DNA of 64,000 nucleotides from positions 62,001-126,000 of the forward strand of contig NZ_ACFE01000005.1 of NCBI RefSeq assembly GCF_000174015.1. The letters are read 5' to 3'. A program made the translations under genes and the position numbers. The notes beneath the pieces are model-generated. The model was given only the letters and a program-made list of their open reading frames with translations, had not been told where the DNA came from and did not search any database. The DNA comes from Lancefieldella rimae ATCC 49626. GTDB lineage: Bacteria > Actinomycetota > Coriobacteriia > Coriobacteriales > Atopobiaceae. This document shows positions 12,644 to 14,700 of this stretch, one piece after another (positions within the stretch are counted from its first letter, which is position 1; every line of letters begins with the position of its first letter).

Positions 12644-12719
12644 GCGGGCTTAGCGCAGTTGGTAGCGCGCAACCTTGCCAAGGTTGAGGTCGCGGGTTCG
12701 AACCCCGTAGCCCGCTCCA
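12644..12719 (+). tRNA. tRNA-Gly (GCC)
   Basis: A 76-base cloverleaf with GCGGGCT/AGCCCGC acceptor stem, anticodon stem CAACC/GGTTG with loop TTGCCAA (anticodon GCC), TTCGAAC T-loop and an encoded TCCA end. Confidence 0.96.
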
Positions 12720-12765: not shown

Positions 12766-12839
12766 GGCGAGATGGCCAAGTGGTAAGGCAGAGGCCTGCA
12801 AAGCCTTTATCCCCGGTTCGAATCCGGGTCTCGCCTCCA
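12766..12839 (+). tRNA. tRNA-Cys (GCA)
   Basis: A 74-base cloverleaf with GGCGAGA/TCTCGCC acceptor stem, anticodon loop CTGCAAA (anticodon GCA), TTCGAAT T-loop and encoded TCCA. Confidence 0.95.
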
Positions 12840-12887: not shown

Positions 12888-13149
12888 AACCCTGAGCTTT
12901 TGACACCATGAGACCCGTAGTTTTTCCGAACCTGTAAAGTTGTTGCGGCAACCTGTGATGTGATTTCTTGCAACTTGCGGTGCACTTCTTACGACTTCTG
13001 ATGCACATCCTGTGACCTGTGATGTACTTTTCACAACCTGTGATGTACTTTTCTGCTTCAAAACAGGGGGCTGTGATGTACTTTTGGCGAGAAAACCGGT
13101 CTTATCGCTATAAAAAAGTACCTCACAGCTCTGCAAAAGTACCTCACAG
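12888..13149 (+). repeat. Left 21-bp repeat array of the nuclease-like cassette
   Basis: Units of the form CTGTGATGTACTTTT plus a 6-base spacer recur with a 21-22 base period, starting near 12888, 12910, 12932, 12953, 12974, 12995, 13017, 13038, with another at 13071. They decay with distance from the gene. After a 28-base centre containing GGCGAGAAAACCGG, two reversed units AAAAGTACCTCACAG follow at 13114 and 13135, again 21 bases apart. Bases 13031-13108 are an exact inverted copy of 14564-14641. Confidence 0.92.
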
Positions 13150-13219
13150 GTTTGGCGGCTACCGTATAACCACCTCTATATATAACGCACCTCGATATCT
13201 CCTGACTTAACTACATACG

Positions 13220-13286
13220 GCATAGCAAACAATAGGCTATGCCAGTCAGATACCAGTCAGATATCAGTCAGATAACGGTCAAATAA
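13220..13286 (+). repeat. Inverted repeat and 11-bp tandem repeats upstream of the DUF559 gene
   Basis: GGCATAGC (13220-13227) and GCTATGCC (13237-13244) form an eight-base inverted repeat. It runs into four 11-base units of CCAGTCAGATA type at 13243, 13254, 13265 and 13276, the last one diverged. The rest of 13150-13320 is low-GC with no gene. Confidence 0.85.
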
Positions 13287-13346
13287 CTACTGATAAATCC
13301 ATATAAAAACCACCTCAGCTTTGAACTCCGCTCACATACAATACGC

Positions 13347-13401
13347 CTATAGGAGATCGATAGGAGATCTACAGGAAATCCACAGGAGATCTATGGGGAG
13401 G
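13347..13401 (+). repeat. 11-bp tandem repeats covering the ribosome binding site
   Basis: Units CTATAGGAGAT, CGATAGGAGAT, CTACAGGAAAT, CCACAGGAGAT and CTATGGGGAGG follow each other with an exact 11-base period. Several contain AGGAG, so there are multiple potential Shine-Dalgarno sites; the start codon ATG 13393 lies inside the fifth unit. Confidence 0.85.
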
Positions 13402-14460
13402 CCTATAAAGAAGTCTATGAGAGTATTGATTTCACATAAAAGTGCCTTGATTTTGATGCGACAAGAATCTTTTCGTCGCTTTGCAGTAGCTTTTGGCAAA
13501 AATCCGCATTTTGCTCCGCGAGAGTTTCCTAAGCTATTTGATGTTGCTGCAACCCATGAAGTTTTGCAAAATCTTTTTAAAACGCAAAAGAATTTCCCTC
13601 TTGATGTATTGGTTTCTAACCCTCTTTGCAGGCATCGATCAAAGAAGGTTTCGGCTTATGTTTTTAGTAAGCCACTACCGGAAAACGCTGTTATCCACAT
13701 TACTGGAGAGCTTTATTGTGTTTCTCCATCATTTTTGCCGGTCGTTATGTCACGAACGCTTAGCATTCTTGAGCTAGTGTTTCTTATCTCGGAAATTTGT
13801 GGTCTCTATACTTTTAAGGGCGATGAAGAGCCTGTACTTTATCCCCATCAATTTCCACTTACATCAATAGCCAGCATCCAAAACACTCTGAAACAGCTTG
13901 AAAGCGGAAATGCCAAAACCCGAGTCCTTAAGGCTTTATCTATGTGCTGCGGACTGGCCGGTTCGCCGATGGAAACAAAACTGTATATCCGGGCAACTCT
14001 TCCATTTTCAAAAGGCGGATACAACCTCGGAAAAATAGAGGTCAATAAGAGCGTCATGGTACAACGAATGACTTCTCGCATGAGAGAACGGTCTATAAGA
14101 AAACCCGATTTGCTTTTTTGCTTTAAGGATGTTCCAACGCAAACAGAAAAAAGAAAATGGGGCATTGCTCTTGAATATAACGGCCGATATCATGCAAATC
14201 AAAAACAACACAGGCTCGATGATATACGCAGAAATGAGCTGCAGGCTTTAGGGATAATTGAATATGTCATATGGAAAGAGGATTATGACGATATCGTTAT
14301 AATGGACAATCTATTTGAAACGATTCGCAATGAATTGAACATGCCCGTCCATAAACCCTCGCAAGAAAAGAAAAAACTCGAACTCCAAAAAAGATTGAAG
14401 TTATGGAGTGATCTAGAACAGGCAAGCCGTTCATACTATCAAAAACTGTGCGCCATTTGA
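13393..14460 (+). CDS. DUF559/Vsr-like endonuclease-fold protein, low GC
   Basis: A 355-residue protein of unproved function. The C-terminal part (residues about 235-330) matches the DUF559 branch of the PD-(D/E)XK nuclease fold: KPDLLF, then ALEYNGRYH, then DDIRRNELQALG. The N-terminal half has the ISHKSALILMR opening and a VSPSFLP-LELVFLISEICGLY region, a layout I associate with AbiEi-like or DUF559 proteins common in Coriobacteriia. Start ATG 13393 has AGGAG close by. GC content is clearly lower than the flanking genes, and it stands alone on the plus strand between two inverted repeat arrays, next to tRNA genes. Roles in defence, recombination or element spread are all possible. Confidence 0.7.
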   Translation: MGRPIKKSMRVLISHKSALILMRQESFRRFAVAFGKNPHFAPREFPKLFDVAATHEVLQNLFKTQKNFPLDVLVSNPLCRHRSKKVSAYVFSKPLPENAVIHITGELYCVSPSFLPVVMSRTLSILELVFLISEICGLYTFKGDEEPVLYPHQFPLTSIASIQNTLKQLESGNAKTRVLKALSMCCGLAGSPMETKLYIRATLPFSKGGYNLGKIEVNKSVMVQRMTSRMRERSIRKPDLLFCFKDVPTQTEKRKWGIALEYNGRYHANQKQHRLDDIRRNELQALGIIEYVIWKEDYDDIVIMDNLFETIRNELNMPVHKPSQEKKKLELQKRLKLWSDLEQASRSYYQKLCAI

Positions 14461-14500
14461 TTGAGGCTCTGCCAACAGCAACCAAGTTTATTAACGAGAT

Positions 14501-14700
14501 GGCCTGTGAGGTACTTGCAGAGTTGTGAGGTACTTTTTCGGAGCTGTGATGTACTTTTTTATGGCGATAAGACCGGTTTTCTCGCCAAAAGTACATCACA
14601 GCCCCCTGTTTTGAAGCAGAAAAGTACATCACAGGTTGTGAGAAGTGCATCACAGGTCACAGGATGTGCATCACAGGTAGCTGTTATAAAATCACAACCC
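14501..14700 (-). repeat. Right 21-bp repeat array, inverted copy of the left array
   Basis: Read on the minus strand this has the same order as the left array: TTGTGATTTTATAAC, CTGTGATGCACATCC, CTGTGATGCACTTCT, CTGTGATGTACTTTT, a further unit, the centre with GGCGAGAAAACCGG, and reversed units AAAAGTACATCACAG and AAAAAGTACCTCACA. Bases 14564-14641 are an exact 78-base inverted copy of 13031-13108, and identity stays about 95 percent over some 135 bases. Confidence 0.92.

Follow-up and report, generated by a model that had tools for sequence, protein, structure and literature searches.

A nuclease-like gene and its private, dispersed repeat arrays in Lancefieldella rimae and related Coriobacteriales

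In Lancefieldella rimae ATCC 49626, a gene for a nuclease-like protein lies between two long arrays of short repeats that face each other, which raises the question of how the gene and the arrays are connected. The locus was analysed in a stretch of 64,000 nucleotides, here called the window (contig NZ_ACFE01000005.1, positions 62,001 to 126,000 of the forward strand), and its features are collected in Table 1. A preliminary description had reported inverted arrays with 78 identical bases, a central core, opposed units beyond it and units that decay away from the gene, and every part of this layout proved exact, coordinates included. The segment 13031-13108 is the reverse complement of 14564-14641 at 78/78 bases, and the two arms as a whole, 155 nt each and in inverted orientation, are complementary at 147/155 positions. 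Both arrays (array A) consist of a 15-nt unit, CTGTGATGTACTTTT, repeated at 21-nt steps. The units run one way up to a 28-nt core, GGCGAGAA....TTCTCGCC, outside which opposed units follow with one step of 33 nt and the others of 21 nt, and they degenerate with growing distance from the gene. The inner units face each other at a spacing of 43 nt, identical in 13 arrays. The helical phasing has the appearance of a binding site, in agreement with the earlier suggestion that the units serve a DNA-binding protein.

Table 1. Features of the focal locus (positions in the window)
Feature	Position	Strand	Remarks
Nuclease-like gene	13393..14460	+	weakly AbiEi-like N-terminus, C-terminal DUF559/Vsr-like (EDxHD-type) domain
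Left copy of array A	12994..13148	+	degenerate units further left to ~12953
Left-copy units	13017-13031, 13038-13052, 13071-13085	+	
Left-copy units beyond core	13114-13128, 13135-13149	-	
Core palindrome of left copy	~13086-13113		28 nt, forming an inverted repeat of its own (GGCGAGAA...CTTATCGC)
Right copy of array A	14524..14678	-	inverted relative to left copy
Right-copy outward units	14587-14601, 14620-14634, 14641-14655, 14662-14676	-	
Right-copy inner units	14504..14558 (14504-14518, 14523-14537, 14544-14558)	+	
GTCAGATA repeats, 3-4 at 11-nt steps, upstream of focal gene	13243..13285	+	common to same-genus homologues, hence not private

As described before, the block follows two tRNA genes (tRNA-Gly, 12644-12719; tRNA-Cys, 12766-12839), and the arrays enclose no plausible gene other than the nuclease-like one. 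The next genes beyond the block encode a CmpB-type membrane protein and a STAS/HATPase protein. Apart from the two tRNAs, Rfam matched the locus only in an overlap with tRNA-Gly that fell below threshold, and an RNA element was therefore rejected. The proposal of an invertible segment found no support beyond the inverted layout itself. Repeats of the GTCAGATA type at 11-nt steps occur upstream of all three paralogues in this genome, the focal gene included, and of the homologue in two related genomes, G001 and its sister G004 (homologues besides the focal gene: L045, L046, L089, L090); this promoter-side motif is thus common to the genes and private to none. Just before the focal start codon stands another repeat of 11 nt, AGGAGATCKAT; the repeats were noted at 13243-13285 and 13347-13390 of the window.

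Beyond the view of the preliminary description, array A also stands at 11 gene-less intergenic sites of the same architecture (contigs C5, C7, C8 and C9), in addition to the two copies at the focal gene, and is therefore not confined to it. With at most one mismatch, its unit had 50 matches in the 1.63-Mb genome versus 0 for a reversed-pattern control, so that chance does not account for it. The genome holds three paralogues, the focal gene among them, 31-35% identical, and two further array families. Array B, with the unit GTTTAGTGGTG and a central palindrome, adjoins the paralogue at C9:70235-71218, and array C, with the palindromic unit CCATACTTGC.GCAAGTATGG at 30-31-nt steps, flanks the one at C8:426081-427094 on both sides. 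By clustering of the matches listed, array B has about 20 dispersed sites and array C about 14. The three units show no relationship in sequence, and array A is found beside neither of the other two paralogues. The focal unit was also absent from the 59 related genomes searched, though 42 of them have a homologue. In this genome, each gene is paired with one private array family, and the families are dispersed. The preliminary description had held that repeats scattered without a link to such genes would speak against its reading. Array A is indeed found without a gene, and the link between gene and array stands: since array families differ from one homologue to the next, scatter is not decisive, and one-to-one pairing, the right test, held.

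At several loci (L140, L141, L146, L154, L157), arrays B and C were also seen joined, always in the same order, through a conserved linker that is about 90 nt long and contains a stem-loop. About 60 nt of this linker match a region beside the adhE-adjacent nuclease homologue of G001 and G004; each of these two genomes also has one full copy elsewhere. The composites may derive from sequence copied out of a nuclease locus.

We compared the flanks of 43 homologue genes with those of 216 further genes from the regions that hold them, namely 40 regions of relatives, 3 of the window's genome and 6 named loci from MAGs. Inverted-repeat coverage of at least 40 nt was found for 63% of homologues and 7% of controls, and repeats common to the left and right flanks for 37% and 1.4% respectively (Mann-Whitney p 2.8e-18); a few controls are probably flanks of homologues missed by the gene caller, and the contrast may be understated. 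Arrays bracket some homologues on both sides and others on one side. About one third of homologues fell under the 40-nt threshold.

Privacy of the arrays extended to other genomes. Eight arrays, taken from eight genomes, were joined into one query and searched in nine genomes, and the matches were essentially confined to each array's genome of origin, the sole exception among the matches listed being one weak GC-rich match in G016; the window's genome gave zero matches. Across the eight genomes, dispersed sites per array family ranged from about 0 to 25: G001 had about 20, G007, G023, G024 and G028 had between several and about 25, and G019, G027 and G016 had few. Within G194, two of the eight homologue arrays tested were dispersed (about 9 and about 20 sites), and six were found beside their own gene only. 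A GCTGGATTTCTGC-like direct repeat was observed near several G194 homologues (C1:1735289-1735370, 365518-365591, 3199092-3199171) and near one homologue in another genus (G053 C52:62766).

The likeness of units was then set against the likeness of proteins and of loci. Five homologues from Eggerthellaceae and Coriobacteriia MAGs (L077-L081) have proteins 52-63% identical and no homologous neighbour genes among them. L077 and L078 have a unit in common (28/28 nt), L079 has a close variant, and L080 and L081 retain the half-unit TGTCACAAA, the other half being different. Conversely, paralogue B and the G001/G004 homologue occupy the same locus, the adhE-folA interval as read from the sequence, and are 38% identical with different units. 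Unit similarity thus tracks the protein and not the locus. Among 149 genomes of the phylum, strong protein matches were found in Coriobacteriales alone, and three weak matches outside the order look like general DUF559 proteins. Zero relatives were encoded on viral contigs, and viral carriage was rejected. In-frame stop codons were seen in some homologues (G019:C1:1059057-1060043; G194:C1:1375248-1376228), indicating that decayed copies exist.

The focal gene has 355 codons and a GC content of 40.5%, compared with 50.3% for the window; it starts at 13393 or, as the homologue alignment suggests it may, at the ATG at 13417. No Pfam model matched the focal protein itself, but DUF559 was matched by five of seven aligned relatives (A3 alignment; best E 5.9e-8), as the earlier DUF559-type assignment had proposed. 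Because the structure model of the focal protein was poor (pLDDT 55), the homologue L079 was modelled instead, with pLDDT of about 85-94 across most of the C-terminal domain. This model resembled the catalytic domain of I-Bth0305I (3r3p; Z 10.4, 95 residues, 2.5 A) and Vsr (1cw0; Z 8.9). The catalytic-type residues D239, E261, H267 and D276 (focal numbering) are invariant across nine homologues, as are G264 and R279, which fits an active nuclease. The N-terminal part of L079 resembled AbiEi (6y8q; Z 5.8, 118 residues) in a low-confidence region of the model, and Pfam AbiEi_4 matched one of nine alignment members at E 0.24, so the predicted AbiEi likeness is suggestive only. PADLOC placed the focal protein weakly with mREase_II, a type II restriction-enzyme model (E 9e-4), and the focal protein and two paralogues together gave weak matches to mREase_II and Csm2 (E 0.03). 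With this weak match and no defence neighbours recognised, the earlier reading of the block as a defence island found no support.

Signs of spread were found in two lineages. G001 contains a discrete 123-nt element that is bounded by terminal inverted repeats (TTCCAAAAAAGTGC) and present in 17 copies, most of them 97-98% alike, in differing and unrelated flanks. All 14 element sites tested against the sister genome G004 are filled in both, so that those insertions are older than the G001-G004 split, and given these shared sites the spread of the element seems to have been old or episodic. For array A, the gaps orthologous to two sites, one read as beside rpoD/tRNA-Asn and one in a ribosomal-protein cluster, are array-free in G001, G002 and G003. 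The gaps orthologous to sites L037, L039 and L042 are array-free in G001, and that of L043 holds G001's own element instead of array A. The simplest reading of these sequences is that arrays were gained in the window's lineage, the alternative being loss in all others. No target-site duplication was evident at the array copies. Dispersed copies and empty sites in sister species thus lend weight to the earlier suggestion of a mobile or self-propagating cassette. Several gaps with G001 element sites coincide with those of other-family arrays in the window's genome (L124/L151, L128/L144, L126/L164, L136/L043); hot spots of insertion, or units turning over in concert, fit these as well as free insertion does.

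We consider it fairly probable that the locus is a two-part element, made of a nuclease-like gene and a private array that the encoded protein recognises and drives, or drove, to spread. This reading brings together observed features, namely the association of gene and array, their pairing, the fixed architecture, the dispersal, the empty sites in sister species, and the nuclease fold with its invariant residues. We infer binding of the units by the protein, cutting, and a causal role of the cuts in the spread. Private pairing and fixed helical phasing suggest that the protein cooperatively binds its own units, and the nuclease fold suggests nicking or cutting at the array. The element would consist of a single-copy AbiEi-like/Vsr-like nuclease gene and a helically phased palindromic array, which stands next to its gene and in many genomes also elsewhere in intergenic DNA. 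The N-terminal part of the protein would provide cooperative binding to the private units, the array would be nicked or cut by the protein, and the ensuing repair or joining would place array copies in new intergenic gaps. Counting against this are that no movement was observed, that the G001/G004 sites are all shared and that target-site duplication is not evident, together with the gene-only arrays in G194 (6/8), the sub-threshold third of homologues, the middling AbiEi Z score and the shared gaps.

A structural or regulatory role of the arrays is the main rival. In the regulatory version, which we regard as unlikely, an AbiEi-like autorepressor binds the arrays cooperatively, its dispersed sites act as a regulon or as a sponge that titrates it, and the nuclease domain has some other function. 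The N-terminal fold match and the phasing of units at 21 or 30-31 nt agree with such a role, as does the cooperative binding of inverted repeats by AbiEi antitoxins described in one report (PMC7319586). However, the catalytic-type residues are invariant, many homologues have arrays on both sides, and the dispersed copies favour gene 3' ends. Among the 35 arrays with both neighbours called, 14 lie in convergent gaps and 2 in divergent gaps, compared with 5/45 and 7/45 in a small baseline of gaps, a convergent share of 40% versus 11%. In the structural version, protein and arrays make up an organising or insulating system of the chromosome, in which helically phased multimers sit at gene ends, inheritance is vertical and units evolve in concert with the protein. 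The stability of sites between G001 and G004, the gaps shared by several G001 element sites and arrays of another unit in the window's genome, and the fixed unit spacing would suit it, but three unrelated families in one genome, a range of 0 to about 25 dispersed sites with some families lacking dispersed copies, the near-identical G001 copies, the empty orthologous sites and the nuclease fold would not, and we find it improbable. A passenger role of the nuclease gene, with an unrelated transposase moving the arrays as MITE-like elements, is very improbable, since the terminal inverted repeats and MITE-like size of the G001 element are outweighed by the order-wide association, the private sequences of each homologue, unit likeness that follows protein and not locus, and the lack of any plausible gene besides the nuclease-like one between the two focal array copies.

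The two-part element was compared with known systems. REPIN-RAYT systems of Pseudomonas and enterobacteria combine REP elements with an IS200-like Y1 transposase. Bracketing of an enzyme gene, private families per homologue and dispersal in intergenic DNA are common to both, and the preference of arrays for gene ends resembles that of REP elements. On the other hand, the enzyme here is of the DUF559/Vsr type with a weakly AbiEi-like N-terminus, versus an HUH Y1 (IS200/IS605-like) transposase; multi-unit arrays with 21- or 30-31-nt phasing stand in place of short hairpin doublets, and copy numbers are in the tens instead of hundreds. No Y1 transposase match was found for the protein family in Pfam and NCBIfam, and membership was rejected because this defining enzyme is absent and the domain folds as Vsr/I-Bth0305I. 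The predicted C-terminal fold and catalytic-type residues are those of Vsr and of I-Bth0305I, an EDxHD homing endonuclease, but this family has private flanking arrays, an extra N-terminal part and no intron or intein setting. With the focal gene and all 37 scored arrays lying between called genes (0/37 inside genes by a codon-score gene caller), a homing endonuclease element was rejected. The likeness to AbiEi, the antitoxin of the type IV toxin-antitoxin system AbiE, concerns the N-terminal fold in its low-confidence region, and differs by the nuclease domain and the dispersed arrays. No AbiEii nucleotidyltransferase partner was recognised next to the focal gene, which stands alone between its arrays, and an AbiE pair was rejected. 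TnsA of Tn7-like transposons is a PD-(D/E)XK nuclease; the element contains neither TnsB nor TnsC, and a Tn7-like transposon was likewise rejected.

To our knowledge, enzyme-linked dispersed palindromes are otherwise known only with Y1 transposases (RAYTs). In REPIN-RAYT systems an enzyme gene is bracketed by extragenic palindromes, and several private families are each tied to one homologue (PMC3116915). We found no report of nuclease-array pairing in the open-access literature, and one may exist elsewhere. We put slightly more belief than doubt in the view that genes and arrays form a new class of bacterial dispersed-repeat system that is widespread in Coriobacteriales: each Vsr-type nuclease, its DNA specificity diverging from that of the others, would propagate a palindromic array of its own, as an independent counterpart of REPIN-RAYT that uses a different enzyme chemistry. 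If so, the enzyme-linked private-repeat lifestyle arose at least twice, with unrelated enzymes, and the homologues, of which a genome may have up to about a dozen, would form a natural series of nucleases and targets for the divergence of DNA specificity. The arrays would also supply markers for human-associated bacteria, and the spread of REP-like repeats would become testable through a nuclease of known fold. A further resemblance of the nuclease domain (model m671fb19c1382, residues 179-306) was to apicomplexan and ciliate mitoribosome proteins (Z 7.7-9.3), which are probably RAP-domain proteins. The related FASTKD4 was called Vsr-like in a 2024 paper (PMC11879112).
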